NCBI GenBank assembly: GCA_947561715.1
Contig: OX387199.1
Span: 7,507,001 to 7,571,000 of the forward strand
Reading direction: 5' to 3'
DNA length: 64,000 nt
Source of the DNA: Ascidia mentula
Taxonomy: Eukaryota > Chordata > Ascidiacea > Phlebobranchia > Ascidiidae
Shown piece by piece: positions 3,501-53,994 of the stretch (positions are counted from its first letter, which is position 1; every line of letters begins with the position of its first letter). The notes under the pieces are model-generated. The model was not told the origin of the DNA. It did no database searches and worked only from the letters and a program-made list of their open reading frames with translations. The translations under genes were made by a program, and so were the position numbers.

Positions 3501-4870
3501 CTTTTTAACCTTCGACTGTAGCACATTGTCTTTTGTTTCGACTGCAGGTTTGGCCTGGTAACATAGTAGTATTGTTTGTTTGACACTTTCAACGCTTTAG
3601 TATTTACAAGGTGAATTAGACTTACTTTTCCCATATCCATGCTACTAGCAGATGTAAGATGATCTTCGTAATCAGCTGTGTTAGTGGCTCAGTCGAGTCT
3701 CACGCTTGGAGTAGCGGTTCAAGCAACTCGTGAAAATCCGAATAATTTGGTGATGATAAATTTGCCGAAGAATGGGAAGACGATGCTGAACTTATTTTCA
3801 AAAAAGATACACTTTAAAAGATTAAAAATATTGAGGACTTCGAGCATTGTTTCAATCACAACTATTTTTGCTTCCGAGTCATTTTGAAGATCTTGATTCT
3901 TCAAACTATCAATGAAGTCTGAATCTCGGAGTAGAGGTTCAAGCAACTCGTGAAAATCCGAATAATTTGGTGATGATAAATTTGCCGAAGAATGGGAAGA
4001 CGATGCTAAACTCATTTTCAAAAAAGATACACTTTGAAAGATTAAAAATATTGAGGACTTCGAGCATTGTTTCAATCACAACTATTTTTGCTTCCGAGTC
4101 ATTTTGAAGATCTTGATTCTTGTAACTATCAATGGAGTCTGAATCTCGGAGTAGAGGTTCAAGCAACTCGTGAAAATCCGAATAATTTGGTGATGATAAA
4201 TTTGCCGAAGAATGGGAAGACGATGCTGAACTCATTTTCAAAAAAGATACACTTTGAAAAATTAAAAATATTGAGGACTTCGAGCATTGTTTCAATCACA
4301 ACTATTTTTGCTTCCGAGTCATTTTGAAGATCTTGATTCTTGTAACTATCAATGGAGTAGCAACTCATGAAAATCCGAATAATTTGGTGATGATAAATTT
4401 GCCGAAGAATGGGAAGACGATGCTGAACTCATTTTCAAAAAAGATACACTTTGAAAGATTAAAAATATTGAGGACTTCGAGCATTGTTTCAATCACAACT
4501 ATTTTTGCTTCCGAGTCATTTTGAAGATCTTGATTCTTCAAACTATCATTGGAGTCTGAATCTCGGAGTAGAGGTTCGAGCAACTCCGAGCTTGTTTTAA
4601 AATAAGAAATACTTCTAGAGGTTGAAATTGATGAGTTTTCTGAAAACGACACATTCTTTAACTCCTTAGTCAAATTTTCGATGTTGCTTGAAGCCTGGTT
4701 GTTCAATGGTGCCAAGTCTATTCCTTTTGAGCCACAAAATCCTGAAATTTTATGAAATGATCAATTGTGTACAAAAGAAATATTTTTTTGTGCAATTCAG
4801 CACCCTTGCTAGCGATTACATTCGGTAATTTGACACCCTCAGAGACCATTGGCAAAGTTTACCTTTCATT
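590..4870 (-). pseudogene. Alpha1: kinase-less, decayed tail-module paralog
   Basis: This is a sister copy of the downstream half of the beta gene. Read on the minus strand, recognisable exon relics come in beta order. They are an exon-15-like piece (about 4866-4806), an exon-16-like piece with LEPLL and KNQDLQNDSE motifs (4754 downward, expanded into a 220-bp tandem array), relics of exons 18-20 (about 3655-3353), a second exon-16-like piece (about 2886-2365), an exon-17-like piece ending YTPAG (about 2292-2190), exon 18-20 relics (1955-1534), a GVSK-type exon (about 1476-1391) and a terminal DEKQI exon (about 980-600). No kinase exons are present. The exon-15 relic has a stop after four codons, the terminal exon is interrupted, the exon-20-like piece is frameshifted and the array is out of frame. 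Seen: decay of several exons. Inferred: a pseudogene, although a non-kinase transcript is possible. Confidence 0.7.
3709..4590 (-). repeat. Tandem array of ~220-bp exon-16-type units
   Basis: Successive copies start near 3709, 3929, 4149, 4355 and 4568, at spacings of 220, 220, about 206 and about 213 bp. Each contains the segment coding for ELLEPLL, KNQDLQNDSE and VIETML. A 220-bp step is not a multiple of three, so consecutive copies are in different frames and the array cannot encode a repeated peptide. Alpha4 has about two copies (49517-49760), and alpha2 and alpha3 one. Confidence 0.85.
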
Positions 4871-16619: not shown

Positions 16620-19535
16620 TTTTTACATCTTGATTAAATTCTTCCCTTCTCTGTCACTTAGGTCTTTTCTTGCTTCCTCCAGCAATGTATTAAGGATATT
16701 TATTTTTGCACCTAGTACATAGTTATCAAGATCATCTTCATCAAAATCGGCTTTTAAAGAATGCGAAGAGTCAATACTGTTTACTGCACATAAGTCAACT
16801 CTTTCTGAGTTGCGAAAGGAAGTTTGTCAAAAGCTGCAGAAGATTTTCCAATTTAATGTCTAATTTTTTCATTGCTGTATTGGGTGTTGAGCAAAGGTGA
16901 AATTTTTTCTATCACATCTTGTTTGCTTCTCCAAAATGCTCAAGTCAGTTGAGTTTGGCACTTCAAGCATGGAAATTTGCTTTTCATCACCTAAACAAAA
17001 CACAATAAGAAAAATATCAAAGGTTTCTCATTTGTTTAGTTGGAAGTTTACTTTTTCACTTTTTAGTTATTTTGAGACAGTCAAGGTGACATTTATTCTT
17101 AAAGAAATGCTTTTGTAGGATTTTCTATGGGGTAATTTTGAGGCCAAATCATGGTAATTTTGTTATTAGACATTATAGCAAAAGTAGAAATGATTCTCCA
17201 GAAAGTTGTTGTTTTGTGAAAGATACTCAATATGTATGTGAGATTGGTCCATTTATAACTTTAATGTCAGCTGTTGCTTTTGGATACAGCAATAATGTGA
17301 AATAATGCAACTGGGGATGAAATTTTAAAAACAATGCGAAAGTCAAATTAGCTGTGAAGGAAATTAATTAGTTACCTGGTATTATTTCTTGACTTGAGAT
17401 TTCAGCATTGCTTTGCTGAACAATTTGTTTTGGTGAAGATATTTTCACTTTTGATACACCTGACAAATTTATCCACATGTATATGTCGAAAAGCCTTAGA
17501 AATATTACCTTTTATATTTGTGAAATCCAGTCGGTATTTCATGTTTATTGTCTTCTGAGTGTCATTGGAATATGGTTGCTAAAAACAGTTTAAACTTCCA
17601 ACAATTACGGAACAACTAGGCCTACTAAATTTATATACAAACTAACTTCGTTCCACCGACCACAGCAAATTGTCATTTGATTGGGCTGCTAAAATTGGTG
17701 ATGATTTTATTAAAAATTCTTTTTTCTCCCCTTCGTTTAAGACTTACTTGTTCATAATTCTTGGTACAAGCAGATGCATCATGAACTTCTGAACAACTGT
17801 CTTGTCAGAAGATTTTCCTTTTTTCCGAAACAATCTCTTTTTGAATCATTTCAACAGCTGTCCTATTTTTTGGGGTCTTTTGCCGGTTTAACCTTCTTCC
17901 TTATCGGAAGTTCTGCAAAAAAATATCTTTTAATTGAATACATCACAATCTCGCCCAAATCACAATACACGACCTTTAAACAGACCTAGTAAAACATATA
18001 TACTTCTTCTGACAAATACTGTTAAATCTTTCTTACGCCTAACTAATGCTAACAGACTCTGGTATTTTTGTCAGGCCATTGCTAGGCCAAAAGAGAATCT
18101 TTTATTATTTCTTGGCGGTTTTGGGTAAATATATTGTCAACTGCACCTGCTGGAGTGTAAGTGGGGCAAGATGGAAGGCTTCCATTTCTTTCAACCACCT
18201 CATGTTCCTCCAGTTTGCACAATTCTTCTCGGTTTTGATTTGAAATCTTTAAAATTATTAAAACAAACTTGGTACATGAATTTGGGACATATTTAATGGG
18301 TAAAATTATTCTTTGACCTGTTTTAATTTTTTCAATATTTGTGCTTCCCCCACAATCTTTCCTTCTTTTTCGTTTATTTCTTTTCTCAATGAATCCAGCA
18401 TTGTTTCAATGACAACTATTTTTACTGCATGGTCATTTTCTTTCTTCAAACTAGCTTTCGGAGAATGCAAAGACTCATTACTCTTAACACCCAATAGGCC
18501 ACATTTTTCCAATTGTTTATTTTGTTTTGGTTCTTTGTAGGTTGCAAATGTAAGTTTGCAAAGAGCTGGTGTAGATTTTCAATAGTTTTTTCGCCCAATT
18601 CTTTTCTCAATGAATCTAGCATTGTTTCAATGATGAATATTTTTGTTTCCGAGTCATTTTGAAGATCTTGATTCTTCAAACTATCAATGGAGTCTGAAGC
18701 TTGAAGTAGGGGTTCAAGCAACTCGAGAAAATCTGAATAATTGGGTGATGTTAAATATGGGAAGACGTTGCAGAGCTCATATTCAAACAAGAAGCACTTT
18801 GAGAAATTAAAAATAATGAGGCCTTTCCTGAAATGAACACATTCTTTACTCCTTGGTCAAATATTGGATGCTTGTAACCTGGTTCCAAGTCCGTTACTTT
18901 TGAACCAAAAGATCCTGAAATTTAAATGTCAGTTTTTTATACATGTATATTCTTCATTTTTTAGGAAAATATTTTGCCAAGGAATTTTGTTGGCAATATG
19001 TGCATGCTATAAATAGTGTAGAATTAAAACCTAATTTTGTCCAAATCTGTTATTTGACGAATTGAAAAGAAGAAATGTTTTTTCAAAAAATTGTTTTTGT
19101 GTTGGAAAATAAATTTCATATTTTAATTTCAGTCCTTATTATAGCCTTTAGACCTTAGATTGGTCCATATATGATTTCATGCAAATTTCAAATTCTTCAA
19201 ACTATCAATGGAGTCTGAATCTCGGAGTAGAGGTTCAAGCAACTCGTGAAAATCCGAGCACATTTTGAAATAAGAAATACTTCTAGAGGTTGAAAATGAT
19301 GAGTTTCCTGAAAACGACATATTCTTTAACTCCTTAGTCAAATTTTCGATGCTTGAAGCCTGGTTGTTCAATGGTGCCAAGTCTATTCCTTTTGAGCCAC
19401 AAAATCCTGAAATTTTATGAAATGATCAATTGTGTACAAAAGAAATATTTTTTGTGCAATTCTGCACCCTTGCTAGCGATTACATTCGGTACTTTGACAC
19501 CCTCAGAGACCATTGGCAAAGTTTACCTTTCATCA
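16620..19535 (-). pseudogene. Alpha2: decayed tail-module paralog
   Basis: Same relic exons as alpha1 in the same minus-strand order: exon-16-like piece 19380-19190 with the KNMSFSGNSS and LEPLL segments, second exon-16-like piece 18790-18310, exon-17-like piece near 18245-18150, exon-18-like piece near 17915-17780, a GVSKVKISSPKQ exon (about 17470-17375) and the DEKQI terminal exon near 17000. Compared with alpha1 about 1.45 kb is missing at 19185, removing the tandem array and one set of exon 18-20 relics. No kinase exons. Confidence 0.65.
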
Positions 19536-19542
19536 TCTGAAC

Positions 19543-19984
19543 CAGTGGTTTCCAACGTAGGCGCCAGCACTCACCTAGGGGCGTTTGCAATCGTACGGGG
19601 GGGACTGGAGACTGAATTGGCGATTAGGGGGCGCTTGGTGACATGGCAAATTTTCTCTTGTAGCACAAGTCTGTGTTTCCCAACTGGTGGTAAGCGACCC
19701 CCCCTCCGTAATTTTCTTAACTCTTAGTTGGTGGAACGTGCGTTCAGCGCATTCACCACTCTTTTAGATTGAAAAAGAACTAGTCTTGATATTGACAATT
19801 ACGGAGACTTACGATTGTTTTTGTCCAACATGAAACCCAATATTCAGAAAAAGCACCAAACTCCCCATCGCATTAATTGACAAGCAACAAATAAGTTTGT
19901 TGTGTTGTTTGTCGTTTCTGTTGGGCGTGGTTAAATGACTATGGTGTTTGGGGGGCGGTACAAAAAAAAGTTTGAGAAACACTG
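19543..19984. mobile_element. hAT-type non-autonomous element (alpha2 copy)
   Basis: 442 bp, the same element and insertion point as 4879-5320, flanked by ATCTGAAC and ATCTAAAC. Its identical position shows it was copied with the unit and did not insert independently. Confidence 0.85.
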
Positions 19985-22498: not shown

Positions 22499-23269
22499 GT
22501 CTAACCATACAAACGGTGTCCATATGGTTCTCAAATGCGTTTTTCAACAGTTTACTAAGCCATATGTAGCAGAATATATGCTAACGTTAGCAATACAAAT
22601 TATGCGACACATAAAATTTATGGCGGCAAACTAGGGTTTCTACGCTACGGCTTTCATAATCCTGTTTACATTTTTGACTCGAGTGTTTTATTATTTAAGG
22701 ACTACCATATTTTCATCACTGAAAAGGAGGACACGTGTTGGACCGGGCGAGCTTCAATAACATAATAGTAGAAGGTTTTGAACGAGGTATTATCTTAAGT
22801 AGTCATAAAAATTCTAATTTAGTAATTGATTTGTCCTTTTCTGAAAATCTGAACTTTGGTGCGATATTACTACAGTCAGTAGTGATTTACCTTTTAACAT
22901 CCTCAATTTGTGTAAACACTTTTTTTAAATTTGGAAACCAGTTATATGATACCTGTATCATAATTTTGAACAAATTTGGACTTTATTTAGTTTTGTTAGC
23001 AAAAAGGATGATGTTTTGCAATAAATTTCCTGTGCAATAGTGACACAGTTTATGTTGGAATCAACGCAAAAACAATCCGTTGAATAATCGAAATGAAAAT
23101 CAGTTTACGACTTAACTGTTTGATGGAAATTATCACATGCTTTTTGTTTTATATCAAATATCTGCAAAGAACCTGATTAAAGCGCTTTTTTTTCTTTGGT
23201 TTCATTCCAAATACTCTCCATAGCGTAACCTGATACAAAATAAACGTTTTTCCAACCAATGACTTCGCT
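22499..23269. other. Alpha2-beta2 junction spacer
   Basis: Shared with 37.5-38.2 kb and 59.3-60.18 kb. No gene recognised. Confidence 0.5.
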
Positions 23270-24013: not shown

Positions 24014-27000
24014 TTATTTCATTCTTGCTTCTTCGAGCAATGTATTGAGAATATTTATTTTTACTCCTATTACGTATTTGTCGAGATCGTCTTCCCCCAT
24101 ATCGGTTTTTATAGAATGCGAAGATTCAACACTCTGTACTGCAGGTAAGTTGTCTTTTTTGCCGATATCATGATGTTGTAATGGCTCTTTATCGGTTGCT
24201 ATTGGAAGTTTGCCAAAAGCTTGCGTAGTTTTGCAATTTTCCACATCACCTTTCCTCACGACAAAATTCGATGCTTCATCCTCAACAACAGCAAGAGGTG
24301 GAATTTGCTTTTCATCACCTGAACAAAACACAATAAAAAAATGTCAAAGTTTTCCCATTTGTTTAGTTGGTTGTTTACATAGAAACTTAAAAGTAGAATA
24401 GGTTTCTCCGGAGACACAGCAATAATGGGTATCAATGCAATTTTCTGTTATATAATGACGGAAGTTTAAAAACACCTAACAAATTTATGCACATGTGTAT
24501 ATCGAAAAGCCGACAAGAAATACAAATATTACCGTTTATATTTGTGGAATCCACTCGATATTTCATGTTCTTTGTCTTCTGGGTGTCATTGGAATATGAT
24601 TGCTAGAAAACAGTTGAAACATTCAACAATTACGGAACAACTTGGCATACTAATATATTACAAAAACTAACTTTAAATCTTGTTTGGTCATCATCGCGTT
24701 CCTCCAACCCCAGGAAATTGTCATTTGAATGGGTTGCAGGATTTGATTGCTAAAATGGTGATGATTTTATTAAATATTGGTGAGTTTCGCCTTCGTTTAA
24801 GGCTTACTTGTTCATATTTCTCAACACAAGATGCATCGAGAACTTCTAAAACAACAGTCTTGTCAGTGCATTCTCTTTTTTTCCGAGACCATCTCTTCTT
24901 AAACCACTTCAACAGCCCTCCTGTTTTTTTGGTTTTTGCCGGTTTATCCTTTTTTATCAGAAGTTCTGCAAAAAGAAATCTATGTTTAAATAAATCTCAA
25001 TCTCGCTCAATTCAACTTTGACAATTTTTGTGTGTGCAAAGCAAATGTACCGTAGTTAATAAATCAAATATATTGTCAACTGCACCTGCTGGAGTGTAAG
25101 AGCAAGATGGAAGACTTCCATTTCTTTTAACTACGTCATGTTTTTCCAGGGAGCACAATTCCTCTTGGTTTCGATTTGCAATCTTCAAAATTATAAAAAA
25201 TAAACTTGGTTTATAAATTTAGGCATATATACTATACTGGGCAAAATTAATCACTGACCAGTTTACTTTTCTGTAATATTTCTGTTTCCCCCACAGCCTG
25301 GTTTTCATTCAACGATCTATGAATTGTATGTTGTTGGTTTTTCTTTCCTTCCATTTCGCTCAATTCTTTTCTCAATGTATCGAGAATTGTTTCAATAATG
25401 AATATTTTTGTTTCCGATTTATTTTGAAGATCTTGATTTTTGAAACTGTCAATGGAGTCTGAACCTTGGAGGAGAGGTTCAAGCAACTCTTGAAAATCCG
25501 AATACTTAGGCGATGATAATTCTTCCGACGAATTGAAAGACGATGCAGAGCTCATTTTGAAATAAGAGATGCTTCGAGAGATGGAAAAAGATGAGTCATT
25601 TTCTGATAACGAGATGTTCTTTGGCTCCTTAGTCACATTTTCGATGCTTAAAGAAGCCTCGTTGTGCAATGGTGACAAGTCCATTTCTTTTGAGCCACAA
25701 GATCCTGGAATTTAATGAAATGATTAAGTATGTAAAATAAATTTTTATTGTTTGCAATTCAGCACCGTTGCTAGAGATTACATTTGGTACTTCAACATCA
25801 TCAAAGACCGGTGGTAAAATTTGCTTTTCATCATCTAAACAAAACAGCAAAATTTGTTTTTAAATTATCGTTGAAAGATTAAATAATGTAATTTGTTTAC
25901 TGACAACACGGTTTAATCTCGCATCGAAGTGGCCACACCGCACTTTAAAACAATTAAGTTTCCTGATTTTAAGTAAAATCGTCGCAAAAATACGCTTGTT
26001 TTATTTGTAAAAAATTAACGTGAATGTAACATGCATCATGCTTCTCCTAACTCGGGGTAAATGCCAGTTTTTCCGAGACCATTGTAAACGTAGGGGATAT
26101 TCATCATGTTTTAGGAAATTACTTCACCAAGGAATTTTGTTAGCATGTTGTGCATGCTATATAAGTAGTGTGGATTTGAAACGTAATTTTGTCGTAAATC
26201 TGTTATTCAACGTAACTAAAAAAAACGTTTTTTCCAAAAATGTCGTTTCCTTTTGTGATATAGTCCGTGTATGATTTCATGCAAATTGATTAAATAATTT
26301 ATAATGTTGTTTAACTTAGCACTGTGTTTAAGTTTGTTGCACTTTATCGATGATTTCCCTTTTAGCATAGCAATATTCCACACATGTAAACGTCAACAAA
26401 TTATTTGGTACACCTGCAAAATTACCTCTAGTATTTGTGAAATTTGTTGGGGACTTTATATCTTTTATCTTCTGCTTGTCACTATTCTTCAGTTGCTACA
26501 AACATTTCAACAAATTAATATTTACAGTTGGATAATTAGGACCATATAACAAGTTACCTTAAACATTGTTTTGTTCTCTTTTTTTTCGTCTGTCGACTGT
26601 AGCACAGCAATCTCTTTTGTGTCGACTGCGGGTTTTGGCTGATAAAATAGTATAATATCGTTTGTTTCACACTTTCAACAACGCCTCAGTAATTACAAGG
26701 AGATTAAGACTTACCTTTCCATTATCCCCACTAGTAGGTGTACCGGGAACTTCTGCGTCAGCAGTAGCCCGGTCAGAAGATTTCTTTTTCTTACCGAAAA
26801 TTCTATTCTTAAACCATTTCAACAAACCTCCAGTTTTTTTGTTGATCGGTTTTACTCTTTTTGGCTTTAGGCGTTCTGGAGAAAACATTGGTTCACAAAA
26901 AATCAGATTCAAGCCTTAATCAAACTACACCACATAAACTGACCTGGGTGGACATACTCTGTTTGGTGAATACTTTCAAAACTTTCAATGGACTCATTAA

Positions 27001-29783
27001 TACAAACGGTTGCCGGTATTTTTGTATGGCCGTTTTCGGGCCTTAAAAGAGTCTTTTTGAGCTTCAGATTCTCTAATTTGACGGCTTTTAAAGGCTTTGT
27101 GGTTTGTCCTGAAAGGGTAGCAAATTTTACGTGATTTAATAACACACATTCGAGCAAATTGCCATAAAATTAATATTTAACGGCGGATATTTTACCTGGG
27201 AGTATTTTTCTCATTATTTTCTCCTTCTTCTGCCGCTTTCCATAATCGTCGACAATTTTCAGACTGCCTTCATATGGAATGAGGGAGTCTCCTGTTTTCT
27301 TGAGATTCGGAGTAGGAGAAGATGCTCGAGACAAATCCGAAGAAGAAATGTTACCAGGTTTTTCCGTTGCACCACCTACAAAATGCAAAGTGGGCGGTTA
27401 AAGGAAATTAAACAACTAAATTATCCCATTCACCATTTGGAATATATGCGGAACAAAATGGAAGCTTTTCAATTATTTCAGCCTTCTTGCATTTCTCCAC
27501 TTCTCCAAATTGGTGTTGGTTTTGATCTGGAATCTTCGAAATAAAAACAAACGTAAGTTTATGGTTCTGTGGTAAATTATTGAGTAAACTTTAATTACTG
27601 ACCAGTTTGTGTTTCTTTGTTATTTCATTATCCATTGTTATAACACTATTGTTATTCGCATCCACTTCAAGTGGAATTGCAAGGACATCTTCGGGTGCTA
27701 CACTGCATTTTCCAACATGGGACAAAACCATACAGATGTCATCCTCATTTACTTTGGATGTAGAATTTGAACTGATGTTGTCAGGAAAACCAACAGCTGT
27801 AACCCACTCCCGCTCAGGGCGAGGAATATTAAAACTTAATGGCCAGCTATCCTTTGCGTCTAAATCAACTGTATTACAAAGTTGTACGCATTTTTCGATG
27901 CTGGCTATTGGCGGCAAATTGTCATCTCGGATTTTTTGCCATACTTGTAAAAGAGGTAATTCGTCGAGGGTTTGTGTAACTTTCGGCATCCCAAGAGTTG
28001 CTTCTTCATCGTCACTTGCTAAGATCGGCGAAAAACCAAGTGAAGTATTTTCGTCGTTCTCAATTTCTTTACAACCAACTTCCTTGGGATTGGTTGTAAA
28101 GCGCCATATCTCGTACACACTTGTACCATTTGTATCTTGACGAGGAAGTCGTATTTGAATACCAAACTTGTCAGCAGTGTGATGACCCGGGATTGATTTC
28201 CTTTTCAAGAACACACGACGCTCTTTAATCAGATCTCTTCTCTGGAGGAGATAGTTTGAGACGTAATTCGATTGATATTTGTACACTGCGAACCAAAAAA
28301 CAACATTACAATGTCTCCATATTTTAATAACTTAGTGAAACTTACATGGATTTTCCCCAATTGCCTTCAGTTCACTGCGTAACAGTGGCTGAAAATGACA
28401 CGGAGTTTAAATACATTATATACGTTGATTGTGATAAACTGTTGACAAAGATACTTACATATCTCGGAACACAGAAAGAAGTTAAATCCAAACCCATCAT
28501 CCAGGGATGACGTAATATTGTGCTTACGTCAGGTCTTTGCCAGGGTTTAGAATTCAGTAATTGATGAACCAAATCCTTGCACTCTGTATACAGAAAATAC
28601 AGAATATTGTTTGCTGAAGAATAAAGACTAACGAATGTAACCAACCAAGAGAAACGCATTCACGAAATGGAAGCTCTTTATTCTTTCTCTCATATTGGTC
28701 CAGGACCTCTTCCACGGTTTTCCCGGGAAACGGATAAAATCCATTAACCACAACAAAAAGTATAATTCCACTAAACGATAAACTATAGTTAATGGTCTGC
28801 AAAAAGTTAATGTTATGAGACGACTTACATTGACCAAAGATCTGCAAAGATAGCGTTGTATCCCCGAATTTTCATTAGTACCTCCGGAGCCATGTATGGT
28901 GCTGTCCCACATTGGTTAGTAGGCTCAGTTAACATGGCCAGGAGCTTTTTTTGAACATTTTTATTGCTGTTTGGATCCAACATTGGAATCTCAGTGGCAT
29001 AGCCAAAGTCTCCCAATTTTACCTCTTCGTCCTCCGATACAAAAATGTTTTCTAGCTTCAAATCCCTTTGGAGTGAATGTTATTTTGCATTAAAATATGT
29101 TTGATTATTTGTTCGCAAATTTAAATCCTACCGATGAGCGATGTTGTTTTCGTGCAACTTCTGCACTCCACATATCAGTTTTTTAAAGTAAAATTTGACA
29201 GTTGTTTCTGACAAATACGGCACACTTCTGTTCTTATGAGCCAAAGAATGCAAAACCTGCTTCAAATTGCCTTTTGCGGCATATTCCGTGACCAGATAAA
29301 TCCGCTTGTCACAGACAAAAACATCCAGTAACATTATCTAAAAAAACATTCATTAAAATACCACAACAGTTTATCACTAACGACAAAAGATACGTACAAT
29401 GTTGGGATGTCCAAACACTTTGTTCAAAATGCTAATTTCGTTCGGTACGCACTCGGCCAACTTGCTCAGTCTTGCAGCACCAAGATCAGCATAAATAATC
29501 TTAATTGCAACCTAGTGCAATATTAAAAAGCATTAAAGAAAATGCCAATATTTATAAGCTAACATTGTACAACATATATTTGTTTAACCTTTAGTTGCTT
29601 CCCAGTTTCACTGATAGCTCTCATTTTCTCCTTGTTGGCAATTGTTTCTGCCATCACATCTGCCGAGAATACCCGGCCAACTGCCCCACCACCAAGAAAC
29701 TTGCTCTCTGCCATGTCATAGCCCTTACTATGACACGCAGCTTTTTCCTTCTTCAACAATCGACTTTGGAAACGACGATCCAT
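24014..29783 (-). CDS. Beta2 Ser/Thr kinase with modular tail (intact, 1226 aa)
   Basis: A CAMK/TSSK-like protein kinase. Exons (minus): 29783-29589, 29511-29398, 29337-29132, 29065-28829, 28770-28664, 28583-28459, 28388-28346, 28285-27603, 27533-27434, 27375-27196, 27108-26944, 26914-26715, 26638-26558, 26471-26426, 25834-25766, 25704-25259, 25182-25086, 24965-24808, 24749-24672, 24578-24533, 24318-24014; all GT-AG, sum 3,681 nt, open throughout. Kinase marks: glycine loop GGGAVG (31-36), VAIK Lys69, alpha-C Glu90, HRD Asp173 with Asn178, DFG 191-193, CGTAPYMAPE (224-233), Asp247, Arg303, domain end near 315. All catalytic residues are present; the activation loop is long. Residues 316-1226 match no family I know and consist of repeated modules: exon 8 (KKHKL end), KTGGLLKWFK segments in exons 12 and 18, Ser-rich exon 16, terminal DEKQI exon. 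Start chosen at MDRRF; ATG at 29819 is in frame. Substrate unknown. Confidence 0.85.
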
Positions 29784-41900: not shown

Positions 41901-44845
41901 TTGATCGGTTTTACTCTTTTTCGATTTAGGCGTTCTGGAGAAAATACTGGTTTACAAAAAATCAGATTCATGCCTAAATCAAACTACACCACATAAACTG
42001 ACCTGGGTGGACATACTCTGTTTGGTTAGTACTTTCAATACTTTTGTTGGCCTCATTAATACAAACGGTTGCCGGTATTTTTGTATGGCCGTTGTCAGGC
42101 CTCAAAAGAGTCTTTTCGAGCTTCAGATTCTTTAATTTGACGGCTTTTGAAGGCTTTGTGTTTTGTCCTGAAAGGGTAGCAGATTTTACGTGATTTAATG
42201 CCAAACATTCGAGCAAATTGATAAAAAATAAATATTTAATGGCGGATATTTTACCTGGGAGTATTTTTCTTATTATTTTTTCCTTCTTCTGCCGCTTTCC
42301 AAAATTGTCGACAATTTTCCGACTGCTTTCATATTGAATGAGGGAGTCTCCTGTTTTCTTGAGATTCGGAGTAGGAGAAGATTCTCGAGACAAATCCGAA
42401 GAAGAAACGTTACCAGGTTTATCCGTTGCACCACCTACAAAATGCAAAGTGGCCGGTTAAAGGAAATTAAACAACTAAATTATCCCATTCACCATTTGGA
42501 ATGTATGCGGAACAAAATGGAAGTTTTTCAATTATTTCAGCCTTCTTGCATTTCTCCAGTTCTCCAAATTGGTGTTGGTTTTGATCTGAAATCTTCGATA
42601 TAAGAAACAAACATAAGTTTATGGTTCTGTGGTAAATTATTGAGTAAACTTAAATTACTGACCAGTTTGTGTTTCTTTATTATTTCAGTGTCCATTGTTA
42701 TAACACTATTGTTATTCGCATCCACTACAAGTGGAATTACAAGGACATCTTCTGGTGTTATACTGCATTTTCCAACATGGGACAAAACCATACAGATGTC
42801 ATCCTCATTTACTTTGGATGTGGAATTTGAACTGATGTTGTCAGGAAAACCAACAGCTCTAACCCACTCTTGCTCAGGGCGAGGAATATTAAAACTTAAT
42901 GGCCAGCTTTGGTTTGCGTCTAAATCAACTGTATTACAAAGTTGGACGCATTTTTCGATGCTGGCCATTGGCGGCAAATTGTCATCTCGGATTTTTTGCC
43001 ATACTTGTAACAGCGGTAATTCGTCGAGGGTTTGCGTAACTTTCGGCATCCCAAGAGTTGCTTCTTCATCGCCACTTGCTAAGATCGGCGAAAAACCAAG
43101 TGAAGTATTTTCGTCGATCTCAATTTCTTTACAACCAACTTCCTTGGGATAGGTTGTAAAGCGCCATATCTCGTACACACTTGTACCATTTGTATCTTGA
43201 CGAGGAAGGCGTATTTGAATACCAAACTCGTCAGCAGTGTGATGACCAGGGATTGCTTTGCTTTTCAAGACCACACGACGCTCTTTAATCAAATCTCTTC
43301 TCTGGAGGAGATAGTTTGAGACGTAATTCGGTTGATATTTGTACACTGCGAACCAAAAAACAACATTACAATGTCTCCATATTTTAATAACTTAGTGAAA
43401 CTTACATGGATTTTCCTCAATTGCCTTCAGTTCACTGCGTAACAGTGGCTGAAAATGATACGGGGTTTAAATACATTAAATAAGTTGATTGTGATAAGCT
43501 GTTGACAAAGATACTTACATATCTTGGAACACAGAAAGAAGTTAAATCCAAACCCATCATCCAGGGATGACGTAATATTGTGCTTACGTCAGGTCTTTGC
43601 CAGGGTTTAGAATCAAGTAATTGATGAACCAAATCCTTGCACTCTGTATACAGAAAATACAGAATATTGTTTGCTGAAGAATAAAGACTAACGAATGTAA
43701 CCAACCAAGAGAAACGCATTCATGAAATGGAAGCTCTTTATTCTTTGAACTCTCATATTGGTCCAGGACCTCTTCCACGGTTTTCCCGGGAAACGGATAA
43801 AATCCATTAACCACAACAAAAAGTAAAATTCCACTAAACGATAAACTATAGTTAATGGTCTGAAAAAAGTTTATATGTTATAAGACGACTTACATTGACC
43901 AAAGATCTGCAAAGATAGCGTTGTATCCGCGAATTTTCATTAATACCTCCGGAGCCATGTATGGTGCTGTCCCACATTGGTTTGTAGGCTCAGATAGCAG
44001 GGCCAGGAGATTTTCTTGAACATTTTTATTGCTGTTTGGATCCAACATTGGAATCTCAGTGGCATAGCCAAAGTCTCCCAATTTTACCTCTTCGTCCTCC
44101 GATACAAAAATGTTTTCCAGCTTCAAATCCCTTTGGAGTGAATGTTATTTTGTATTAAAAAATGTTTGATTATTTGTTCGCAAATTTAAATCCTACCGAT
44201 GAGCGATGTTGTTTTCGTGCAACTTCTGCACTCCACATATCAGTTTTTTAAAGTAAAATTTGGCAGTTGTTTCTGACAAATACGGCACACTTTTGTTCTT
44301 ATGAGCCAAAGAATGCAAAACCTGCTTCAAATTGCCTTTTGCGGCATATTCCGTGACCAGATAAATCCGCTTGTCAGAGACGAAAACATCCAGTAACATT
44401 ATCTAAAAATAATTTATTAAAATACCACAGCAGTTTATCACTAACGATAAAAGATACGTACAATGTTGGGATGTCCAAACACTTTGTTCAAAATGCTGAT
44501 TTCGTTGGGTACGCACTCGGCCAACTTACTCAGTCTTGCAGCACCAAGATCAGCATAAATAATCTTAATTGCAACCTAGTACAATATTGAAAAGCATTAA
44601 AGAAAATGCCAATATTAATAAGCTAATATTGTACAACATATTTGTTTAACCTTTAGTTGCTTCCCAGTTTCACTGATAGCTCTCAATTTTTCCTTGTTGG
44701 CAAGTGTGTCTGCCATCACATTTGCCGAGAATACCCGGCCAACTGCCCCACCACCAAGAAACTTGCTCTCTGCCATGTCATAGCCCTTACTATGACACGC
44801 AGCTTTTTCCTTCTTCAACAATCGACTTTGGAAACGACGATCCAT
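38960..44845 (-). CDS. Beta3 Ser/Thr kinase copy with damaged splice donor and frameshift
   Basis: Third copy of the beta gene. Exons (minus): 44845-44651, 44575-44462, 44402-44197, 44130-43894, 43833-43724, 43643-43519, 43448-43406, 43345-42663, 42592-42493, 42434-42255, 42167-42003, 41973-41771, 41694-41614, 41527-41482, 40892-40824, 40762-40218, 40144-40048, 39910-39751, 39692-39615, 39521-39476, 39264-38960. Two faults. The donor of exon 5, inside the kinase domain, is AT instead of GT (43723-43722), so normal splicing to exon 6 is doubtful. Exon 18 is 160 nt against 161 in beta1 and beta4, with an A-run one base short before the GGLLKWFKKR segment. Exon 16 is the longest of the beta copies (545 nt), retaining a segment (KQAPIPGTVDLDV) deleted in frame in the others. 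Catalytic motifs encoded are intact. Probably a recent or incipient pseudogene, or it uses another donor. Confidence 0.75.
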
Positions 44846-51530: not shown

Positions 51531-53298
51531 CCAATCAGATGAGGGCCATGAATGCGAAGTGCGGCCAATTGAAGAGCTACAAACAGAAAACAGTTCAATG
51601 CCCACGGGTAACCGAATAGTCAATCTGGGCATGTTAAATTGTTATATAGAGGACATTTGGCGTGAACACCGCACTTTCAACAGACAAGGATGCATGGGGA
51701 CCTGTTCAGGTACACCTGCCATTACTGAAGAGTGACAAATTGGTTGTGGTTTCACTGCAAGAGCTGCCTGTCCAAGATGCTTGTTTTCATCTGCCTTCAA
51801 GCCATTGTACAAGAAGTGTCAACACCCAGCTGACCTGAAACAAAGGGGCAGAAAGACTTGTGCTGTCAATGCCCAACTGGGCCTTGCAATATGTGCCACT
51901 GGTGTTAGTGTTAAAACTGCGCAGGCATTTCTAAGCTACCTAGACCTGCCCTCACCAAGTTCCAGTTTTATTGTGGAACTGACGCGCAAGGCTGCTGAAC
52001 ACTTTGAATTGGTCAACGAAAGTAACATGCAAGCCTTGAGAAACTCTTGTATCCGAAGTAATGAGCAACGTGAACTCTCTTCTGAGCATCCAGTGAATCT
52101 GCAGACAGACTGCCGGTACAATCTGCGCCAGGGCACAGGAAAAGCACACCTCGGTCAAGCAGCAAGCCAAATTGTGGGGCTTGCAGCAGAAAACAGCAGT
52201 CGCAGCAAGGATGTACTGGCTGTTTTCACCCTAACACGTGAATCCCGCAACCCTCAGTACACCAAGTCAAGACAACCACTATTTGAAGAACACCTGCCAA
52301 TTGGTAACAAAGAATGGGACATTGGGCAGGAGTTGGGGGCCTTTTTGTCCGGCCACAACTTGCAGGCAGGGGAAATTACCACTGACACCAACAGCAAGTT
52401 ATTTGATGGCATTTCAACTGCACTCCATCAAACAAACGAACCTGTCCAACGGCATTGCATCGTCCATAGAGCTAGATCTTTGTTCCGTGTTATTCGCAAG
52501 ATCAACTTCAAACAGCTCTTTCCAGAGAGTGATCATAAAGTGAAAGTAAAAAATTACCACACCAAGAGGCTTGCAGAAGAAACCCAAGCACGTCTAATGG
52601 CAGAATATGCTGGGTGTGTCATGCAGTTTAAGAGGGACTATGCTGACATCAGCAGAAAGATGAAAGCAACTGCAGCTGCTATTTTGAAATGCTTTCATGG
52701 TAATCACACTGGCTGCAAAATCCACTCTTACACTTGCAGAAGGAGAAATCGAAGCCGTGGTTTCTTTGCAAAGCACCGAGGATTAAAGATGACCATAGAA
52801 GACTGACTACAGTGGAAGAAAGAAGTTGCCAAGTTTTTCTCCACTGCAAATGTATCCCGAATTAGACCGGGGTTGGACACGAACAAGTGTGAAAGTTTCA
52901 ATTCTACTCTCAGTCAGGTTATGCCCAAGGGTCGCACATATTATTCAACCTGCAGTGGCAGAGCCCATGCAGCAGTCCTACGAAGGAACAATGGAATAGG
53001 CTCTGCATTCGCACTGGTCAGCGAATATGGCTGCTGTTCATTGGAGAAAGGTTCCCCTGCCTCACGAATGTTGGCATCCAAGCAAAACAACGGCACAGAA
53101 GTGCAGTGGCAGCCACTGAAGCATCACGAAAACATAGAAGTGGCAAAAGAATGCAGAGGTACAGGGTGTACGAGGAGGAAGCTCTACACATTGAGGAAAC
53201 ATATAAGCCTACATCAACCAGCACAAATTCTGAACACACCTAACCCTCCAGCAGAACACAATCCTCGTAACGACCATGGCCCTCACAAGACCGCTTAA
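51531..53298 (+). CDS. Mutator-type (metazoan MULE) transposase, two in-frame stops
   Basis: One reading frame runs from the acceptor near 51530 to 53298 and is broken by TGA at 51733 and 52804. In order it shows an NRIVNLGML segment with a CGFTARAACPRC zinc-knuckle-like pair (about 51600-51780), LQTDCRYNLRQGTGKAHLGQ with the first acidic residue (about 52100), EITTDTNSKLFDGI (second Asp, about 52375), a RHCIVHRARSLF helix, the CFHGNHTGCKIHSYTC Cys/His cluster (about 52690) and DTNKCESFNSTLSQVMPKGR with the catalytic Glu (about 52880). This layout matches the Mutator-type DDE transposases of animals. It is probably inactive as it stands. Alternative: another DDE superfamily with the same Cys/His insertion, such as Kolobok. 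Confidence 0.65.
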
Positions 53299-53722
53299 GT
53301 TGGCACCCCAGCCTCTGCATATTAATGGACCTTGGCTCTAGGCTGAGGTGGGCAGGGTTGATGCAAAGTTTGTTGCTGCAAATATGGCTCACATCCACTT
53401 TCACAGGTAGATTCTCTGTCACAGCCTTGATTTTAACCATATATGCAAGGCGGTGAGCAGAGAAACTTCGCCTGCGGAACCAGATGGAGCTATAGCCATT
53501 CCCTGCCTTCGCCCCTTTCCAAATCAGGCAACTTCCCTCCTGTACTGATCTTCTGGCGAGCTTTGCCTGGTCAAGAAGCTGCTGCTGCTGTTTTTGTTCT
53601 TGTTGCATGTTTTTTGTAATATATATATGTTTATATATAATTTGTCGCACTGTAATAAATATATTACCTGTACTTGTCACAGTAAAGAAAAGGAAAAACA
53701 GCACAGCATAGCATAGAACCAT
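53240..53722 (-). CDS. His-Me finger (I-PpoI-like) endonuclease in the transposon
   Basis: 160 codons open on the minus strand; the true start may be MQQEQKQQQQ (about 53606), after a low-complexity or intronic 5' part. The C-terminal 110 residues show GSCLIWKGAKAGNGY, SAHRLAY, VSHICSNKLCINPAHL, N.QR..C and a CEGHGRYEDC end. This is the beta-beta-alpha metal/His-Me fold with the zinc-binding loop of I-PpoI-type homing endonucleases: SH..C.N..C.NP.HL, then Cys-rich C-terminus. Expected activity is metal-dependent DNA cleavage. It is convergent with, and overlaps by 59 bases, the transposase 3' end. No stops interrupt the domain, in contrast to the transposase. Whether it helps transposition or is a passenger is unknown. 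Confidence 0.72.
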   Translation of the reverse strand: MVLCYAVLFFLFFTVTSTGNIFITVRQIIYKHIYITKNMQQEQKQQQQLLDQAKLARRSVQEGSCLIWKGAKAGNGYSSIWFRRRSFSAHRLAYMVKIKAVTENLPVKVDVSHICSNKLCINPAHLSLEPRSINMQRLGCQLKRSCEGHGRYEDCVLLEG

Positions 53723-53994
53723 GTCCTTTCAGTAATTATGCAACATCAAATTGCCATTAATAGCAGCTTATTTTTGTTAACTTACATCAATAATGTTATT
53801 GAATGCAATAGATTTGTCGCAATCAATGCCAAAATGCAGAATTTAAAAAAAAAGTAAAAATGGTCACTAGGTGGCGACAAGTGGTTGGAGCTGCCTAAAA
53901 ATCATTGTAAGTTTCTCACAATGCCCAAATTCCCTTATTTATGTGCAAATTTTATGTTTCTGGTCTTGTTTTAAAAATGCCAAATTTGCCTTGA
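53723..53994. other. Element sequence between nuclease gene and right repeat
   Basis: 272 bp of AT-rich sequence upstream of the nuclease gene; possibly its promoter. No clear motif. Confidence 0.35.

Follow-up and report, generated by a model that had tools for sequence, protein, structure and literature searches.

A CAMK-like protein kinase gene of the ascidian Ascidia mentula with a tail of duplicated exon modules

The gene described here, termed beta2, lies on the minus strand of a 64,000-nucleotide stretch of the genome of the ascidian Ascidia mentula (C52:7507001-7571000; "the window" in the following), and its sequence suggests that it is a functional gene of a Ser/Thr protein kinase family. 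The ascidian origin also shows in the mitochondrial COX1 of this genome (C79, L025): out of the genetic codes 4, 5, 9, 13 and 14, only code 13, that of ascidians, reads AGR codons as glycine, the residue usual at these positions, and thereby yields the familiar COX1 protein. We consider it rather probable that beta2 combines a CAMK-like kinase domain, a conserved exon 8 and a fast-evolving docking tail that was enlarged by in-phase duplication of an exon cassette, followed by amplification of the gene in an array. The active-looking kinase domain is followed by a conserved region of 227 residues encoded by exon 8 and by a long, fast-evolving tail that may be mostly flexible. Judging by the sequence, a block of about seven exons, which begins in the 3' end of exon 8 and extends to exon 15, was copied in phase within the gene at a time when the C52 and C70 copies had not yet separated. 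One intron or more, including the first one of the block, was copied along, and the simplest account is that the C52 copies later lost the second exons 10 and 11 (10' and 11'). Each cassette carries one short basic and aromatic motif, KKTG-x-LL-x-WF among lysines, that may dock the kinase to a partner or a structure, and the duplication would make the tail bivalent and strengthen targeting. Finally, tandem amplification of the genes produced the array, in which decayed remnants consisting of the tail alone lie between the copies.

Gene model and kinase domain

The gene model was predicted by dynamic programming and then refined against 16 homologous loci of one genome of 196 Mb and 79 contigs. 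It covers positions 24014-29783 of the window with 21 exons that sum up to 3,720 nt and encode 1,239 amino acids, with the start at 29783 and the stop at 24014. All introns are of the GT-AG type, the phases are consistent and the open reading frame (ORF) is complete across the 21 exons. A reading of the window from its letters alone (the sequence-only reading) had arrived at the same number of exons, the same ends and a frame open throughout, which our independent model reproduces, whereas its summed length of 3,681 nt has to be corrected. A first model of 23 exons contained two extra exons, then numbered 15 and 16 (26128-26199 and 25939-25962), that were dropped as they show frame-breaking insertions/deletions (indels) and lose their splice sites in other copies. 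Exons 14 and 20 were trimmed so that they end at conserved donor sites, GTAATT and GTAATA.

The kinase domain is encoded by exons 1-6 (28459-29783), comprising exons 1-3 at 29589-29783, 29398-29511 and 29132-29337 and exons 4-6 at 28829-29065, 28646-28782 and 28459-28583, with the exon model and its splice sites recurring across the copies. It matches Pkinase of Pfam with 172 bits (2.2e-50; cut-off 31.7), while the kinase matches in NCBIfam were all far below cut-off. The glycine loop, VAIK, the alphaC Glu, HRDLKLEN, DFG and APE are present in beta2, and the motif patterns were found in every copy with the respective exon in frame (exon 1, 15/15; exon 2, 16/16; exon 3, 16/16; exon 4, 15/15); the Arg of HRD spans the junction of exons 3 and 4 and lies outside the tested pattern. 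This agrees, for all testable copies, with the earlier statement that all catalytic kinase residues are present.

The kinase exons are followed by exons 7 (28346-28388) and 8 (27603-28285), together spanning 27603-28388, and by cassette A with exons 9-15 (25766-27533), located at 27434-27533, 27196-27375, 26944-27108 and 26715-26875 (exons 9-12) and at 26558-26638, 26426-26495 and 25766-25834 (exons 13-15). Exon 16 (25259-25704) is a linker with a length of 386-545 nt across ten array copies, varying in steps of 3. Cassette B contains exons 17-20 (24533-25182), at 25086-25182, 24808-24965, 24672-24749 and 24533-24602. The first part of the terminal exon 21 (24014-24318) repeats the exon 15 module (DEKQI...), and the exon ends with EEARMK and the stop. 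The longest intron by far is intron 14 with 591 nt.

At least 16 loci of this beta family were found in the genome: C52 contains ten in a tandem array (7.43-7.60 Mb) and a single one at 15.916 Mb, and C70 contains five (12.03-12.08 Mb). These counts are lower bounds as only the best candidates of whole-genome searches with the kinase and the tail were scored. Apart from these loci and the tail-only blocks of the array, the tail was matched at E 0.001 only at C52 8.63 Mb, by two exon-16-like fragments that contain stops.

Duplication of an exon block in the tail

In 119 comparisons among 16 exons or exon parts of the beta2 tail, the pairs 12/18, 9/17, 15/21, 14/20 and 13/19 took ranks 1, 2, 3, 5 and 7, with z = 12.3 for 12/18, and the paired exons stand in the same order and have the same phases. 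The sequence-only reading had proposed the pairs 8/16, 9/17, 12/18, 13/19 and 14/20; four of these are among the top seven (hypergeometric p 2e-5, with pairs treated as independent), whereas 8/16 lies outside the top 18 at the protein level and 15/21 had not been proposed. The likeness of exons 8 and 16 is found in DNA only and at the 3' ends only, comprising the last approximately 24-31 nt of these exons and continuing through the intron into exons 9 and 17, respectively (27508-27626 to 25157-25282, 69%, E 6e-4); over the greater part of exons 8 and 16 no such match was obtained. A match between copies connects 42465-42693 with 25058-25289 (66%, E 3e-8). The similarity spans the 3' end of exon 8/16, the intron and exon 9/17 and thus sets the edge of the duplicated block; this is the one intron of the duplicate blocks for which such similarity was seen. 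The repeat unit consists of the 3' end of exon 8 with exons 9-15 on one side, and of the 3' end of exon 16 with exons 17-20 and the 5' part of exon 21 on the other side. The earlier claim that the tail was enlarged by duplicating a whole exon cassette is supported by the order and phases of the paired exons and by the intron-reaching DNA similarity; its cassettes (exons 8-14, exons 15-20 and the terminal exon) were correct in the duplication and the shared phases but not in the limits of the block.

The second exons 10 and 11 are missing in the array copies but retained in the C70 gene L020, in which 57/74 and 43/54 residues, respectively, are identical to the first exons 10 and 11 (77-80%). 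In L020, exons 10-14 pair with exons 16-20, and exons 12-14 share 27/55, 11/26 and 9/23 identical residues with exons 18-20. The order of kinase, cassette A and cassette B recurs in the independent C70 cluster, as seen in the complete ORFs of L020 and L021. In a tree of exons 12-14 and 18-20 with 25 rows, built after exclusion of the lone copy L019 and of rows in which an exon is missing or broken, cassettes A and B are separated with a support of 100/100 and copies from C52 and C70 are found on both sides, which places the duplication of the block ahead of the separation of the two clusters. A point against this simple history is that the A copies of the array do not form one clade, as C70 A copies lie among them, with weak support.

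Tandem exon duplication itself is a well-known process (PMC9013439), so that the earlier description of the architecture as unusual applies to the tail of a kinase rather than to the mechanism. This review links tandem exon duplication to mutually exclusive splicing. The beta genes resemble the genes enlarged in this way in that exons were duplicated in phase, in beta including at least one intron; unlike the mutually exclusive cases covered there (PMC9013439), beta duplicates a block of several exons, both copies of which can be read in frame within a single protein.

Separately, L019 (C52:15909000-15918400) contains more exon 13/14-like and exon 15-like repeats past cassette A, perhaps an independent gain of cassettes; its model has no clean reading frame past exon 15 and it was not used for the cassette claims.

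Content and constraint of the tail

Exon 8 is single-copy and the best conserved part of the tail, with 683 nt without any change in length in 16/16 copies and a mean column identity of 93%. Lys, Ser, Leu, Glu and Asp are abundant in the tail. Searches of Pfam with the whole tail of beta2 and of L020 returned no family at cut-off (best sub-threshold E 0.11 and 0.012), and exon 8 from 16 sequences yielded only a domain of unknown function (DUF) in Pfam, with a best E of 0.011 in 4/16. In NCBIfam, which was searched with exon 8 only, no match exceeded the cut-off. A profile of exon 8, again as the only part of the tail, returned OXA-1 from PDB at E 0.55-0.64, which was taken as chance. The statement of the sequence-only reading that the tail matches no recognized family is in accordance with these searches, for the whole tail in Pfam and for exon 8 in NCBIfam and PDB.

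Each cassette has a single KKTG[G/R]LLxWF motif with lysines on its flanks, located in exon 12 at 26782-26841 and in exon 18 at 24871-24931, the DNA of both being 80% identical. It was found in 29/29 exon sequences (exon 12 in 15/16 loci and exon 18 in 14/16), a count that leaves out exons that are out of frame or missing. Two structural results do not favor the docking explanation: an AlphaFold model of exon 8 reached a pLDDT of 33.6 and was not used, and the idea that the motif forms a special amphipathic helix was not supported, as 299/300 shuffled tails reach its hydrophobic moment somewhere.

Within the array, 15/19 indels of the tail are multiples of 3 compared with 8/47 in introns (pooled Fisher p 3.7e-6), with 5/6 in exons 9-15 and 10/13 in exons 16-21. 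In the kinase exons and exons 7-8 only 1/5 is a multiple of 3, the other four originating from L009, L017 and a misalignment in L012. For all 16 loci the values are 9/11 in exons 9-15 and 25/124 in introns. Omega within the array, calculated without exons that are out of frame or contain stops, is 0.26 (0.17-0.40) for exons 1-6, 0.43 (0.26-0.74) for exons 7-8, 0.54 (0.42-0.72) for exons 16-21 and 0.62 (0.50-0.77) for exons 9-21; versus C70 it is 0.40 for exons 1-6, 0.44 for exons 7-8 and 0.66 (0.44-1.08, 103 codon columns) for exons 16-21. Several values weigh against constraint on the tail. Within the array, exons 9-14 have an omega of 0.77 (0.52-1.17); versus C70 it is 0.88 (0.63-1.28) for these exons and 0.80 (0.62-1.07) for exons 9-21. 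Pooled omega exceeds 1 in the single exons 1, 10 and 15 within the array and in exons 9, 11 and 20 versus C70. Over all 16 loci only 24/64 indels of exons 16-21 have a length divisible by 3; C70 aligns poorly there, and the C70 genes carry a different set of exons past exon 14. According to these values, the tail as a whole is weakly constrained within the array, while cassette A alone is indistinguishable from neutral.

It is conceivable, though we consider it doubtful, that the tail is coding but little constrained, the duplicated exons being carried along without being needed and importance being confined to the kinase and exon 8. The climb of omega from the kinase over exons 7-8 to exons 9-14, the upper bounds above 1 for exons 9-14 and, versus C70, for exons 9-21, and the differences in exons 10', 11' and 16 between the clusters fit such an explanation; it is opposed by the frame-keeping indels within the array, by the omega of exons 16-21 and by the retention of the KKTG[G/R]LLxWF motif in all exon sequences counted.

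Affiliation of the kinase domain

The beta2 kinase appears to be CAMK-like, and membership in the TSSK family is not claimed. In PDB, the best matches of the beta kinase are MARK kinases (MARK2, 4.8e-30), followed by SIK3, PLK4, CIPK24, CHK2, ULK3 and SNRK, with TSSK6 at 7e-25; together with the Pkinase match this conforms with the CAMK-like domain of the sequence-only reading. Within the genome, the best matches outside the beta family are the single-ORF TSSK-like genes L006 (34%, 86 bits) and L008, the latter matching TSSK6 at 3e-63, in a search that handicaps kinases split by introns. Small kinase trees with few taxa place beta, TSSK and MARK in one cluster (support 80/93 and 85/84), outside of which lies the CHK2-like L003, which we take to be a member of the CAMK group. 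The branch of beta is very long (2.55). The free tree groups TSSK with MARK at 45/21, and in a topology test beta with TSSK was as good as the best tree (p-AU 0.5), while beta with MARK scored lower and was not rejected (p-AU 0.106). Regarding the alternative of TSSK versus other CAMK kinases, the profile and PDB comparisons uphold a CAMK-like kinase, and these small trees leave the order of beta, TSSK and MARK open.

Like beta, the core of the TSSK family falls into this moderately supported cluster, PNEISIL at the alphaC Glu of beta resembles P-R-E-I/L of TSSK, and the two share an aligned KGY where the domain begins. Unlike TSSK genes, beta has several exons, a longer activation loop, LEN in place of CEN and a tail of approximately 890 residues. 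The motifs HRDLKCEN and GSAAYA(A/S)PE, as present in L006, L008 and TSSK6, are replaced by HRDLKLEN and GTAPYMAPE in beta; that they define TSSK is an assumption, and an unclassified TSSK-like ORF beside L006 also departs from them (HRDIKIEN, GSLAYCAPE), which makes this comparison a weak one. MARK and AMPK-related kinases provide the top PDB matches of beta. UBA and KA1 are features of MARK kinases, and Pfam finds neither of them in the beta tail.

A second explanation that we regard as unlikely, though worth consideration, is that beta is an ordinary TSSK with an ascidian tail that acts in sperm maturation. It would agree with L006 being the best genome match outside the family and with the topology test, and two reports describe up-regulation of TSSK in fertile Botryllus (PMC4523013) and TSSK2 in ascidian sperm flagella (PMC4427456). 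Against it stand the PDB ranking of MARK, SIK3, PLK4 and CHK2 above TSSK6, the unrejected grouping with MARK, the pairing of TSSK with MARK in the free tree, the very long beta branch within a cluster supported by 80/93, and the structure of L006 and L008, which are single ORFs with HRDLKCEN and GSAAYAAPE, whereas the beta kinase is spread over six exons. The ascidian with TSSK2 in its sperm flagella is reportedly Ciona.

One transcript or two

We infer from the gene model that exons 1-21 of beta2 are joined in a single transcript. Two observations on polyadenylation signals run counter to this: AATAAA occurs in intron 14 in 8/10 array copies and in 14/16 loci, and no AATAAA is found within 1 kb after the stop of beta2, the next one being located at 22987. 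The signal in intron 14 makes a shorter isoform ending there possible. Going further, there may be two genes or isoforms, with the kinase transcript ending after cassette A by polyadenylation in intron 14 and with cassette B being separate or optional, similar to the tail-only blocks; to this we assign a small probability. The exceptional length of intron 14 and the kinase-less blocks of tail modules downstream of each gene in the window are consistent with it. However, the phases of exons 14, 15 and 16 fit and their splice sites are kept across the array, the complete array genes L011 and L018 have no AATAAA in intron 14 and the sequence is AT-rich. Moreover, exons 16-21 keep their frame in the array, whereas the four tail-only blocks contain in-frame stops, and the same order is found in the complete ORFs of L020 and L021.

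Novelty and possible function

In the searched literature on ascidian and tunicate kinases, on kinase expansion and on tandem exon duplication, no such kinase was described, as judged by titles, and three peptide strings of the tail had no match there. The designation of the architecture as undescribed is valid within the libraries and the literature searched. Taking up the single-transcript gene with a docking tail again, beta would be a kinase specific to its lineage, with a docking tail built of repeats. The gene illustrates clearly how an enzyme has acquired hundreds of tail residues by in-phase copying of an exon block. If the tail is indeed a docking device, it would constitute a kinase targeting module with no homolog in the libraries searched. 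One genome shows different states, namely a full second cassette on C70, a reduced one on C52 and decayed tail-only remnants, so that a useful and a tolerated tail can be told apart by tests in one animal. Judging only by the closeness to TSSK and MARK kinases, one might guess that beta works in the germ line. More speculative, and in our estimation improbable, is a new animal kinase class with duplicable docking-motif cassettes, the content of which would vary between tandem genes and result in graded valency or differing targets, fast-evolving as, for example, in gamete recognition or defense.

Gene family and neighboring elements

Complete reading frames on projection were obtained for 6/10 array copies and 2/5 C70 copies. 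Of the array copies, L010, L011, L013, L015 and L018 are complete as aligned, with the exon 10 donors checked, and L012 was counted as complete after four intron bases misaligned into exon 5 had been removed. A curated model of L020 contains 22 exons and 1,430 amino acids and projects completely on L021. The remaining copies count against a functional family: L009, L014 and L016 have frameshifts and L017 has deletions in exons 5-6, so that 4/10 array copies are lesioned, and on C70 three of five copies are not complete (L022 with a frameshift, L023 with one stop, L024 with a GC donor and insertions). That the 21 exons are ORFs strung together by accident or that the array is pseudogenic, as these lesions and misfits might suggest, is hardly credible given the evidence from frame, splice sites and omega across the loci.

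The window contains three paralogous genes on the minus strand: L014 (8435-14389) with 93% DNA identity and one frameshift in exon 12, L016 (38847-44964) with 94-95% identity in two pieces and its frameshift in exon 18, and L017 (60823-64000), which is cut by the end of the window and has its deletions outside of it. Between the genes lie the blocks with tail modules and no kinase match, at 16640-19570 (minus strand, with in-frame stops) and at 0.6-4.9, 31.7-35.7 and 46.4-55.0 kb of the window. In all four, the exon 18-like module is interrupted by an in-frame stop, which lies at the same place in three of them; the blocks are decayed remnants that were probably copied with the array.

Between C52 and C70 the synonymous divergence is approximately 0.15 in the kinase and exons 7-8, 0.21-0.37 in the tail exons and 0.28 in introns; the lower value over the 5' half may be due to gene conversion. 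The C-terminus of the C70 genes L020-L024 extends further than that of the array genes, as the ORF matching exon 21 continues beyond the stop position of the array, and at their 3' ends the repeat DNLDPFCTPPQSTxPTPSxxRKMLEFIQ and variants of it occur once in L020 and twice in L021-L024.

Within one of the tail-only blocks, positions 3689-4586 contain about five tandem copies of a piece of approximately 110-210 bp of the exon-16-like module. Another one harbors, in a GC-richer stretch, an ORF for a Mutator-like transposase (51736-52803, plus strand; PF20700, 1.7e-30), and just downstream of it lies an ORF that matches the zinc loop of homing endonucleases (53243-53728, minus strand; PF05551, 3.8e-12; HNH_3, 7.6e-6). 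Elsewhere in the genome, including C1 2.0-3.0 Mb and C2 0.8-3.3 Mb, many kinase-domain ORFs of mostly approximately 290-430 amino acids are clustered, and they match Pkinase only from about position 44 onward, which points to the expansion of another kinase or kinase-like family, separate from beta.

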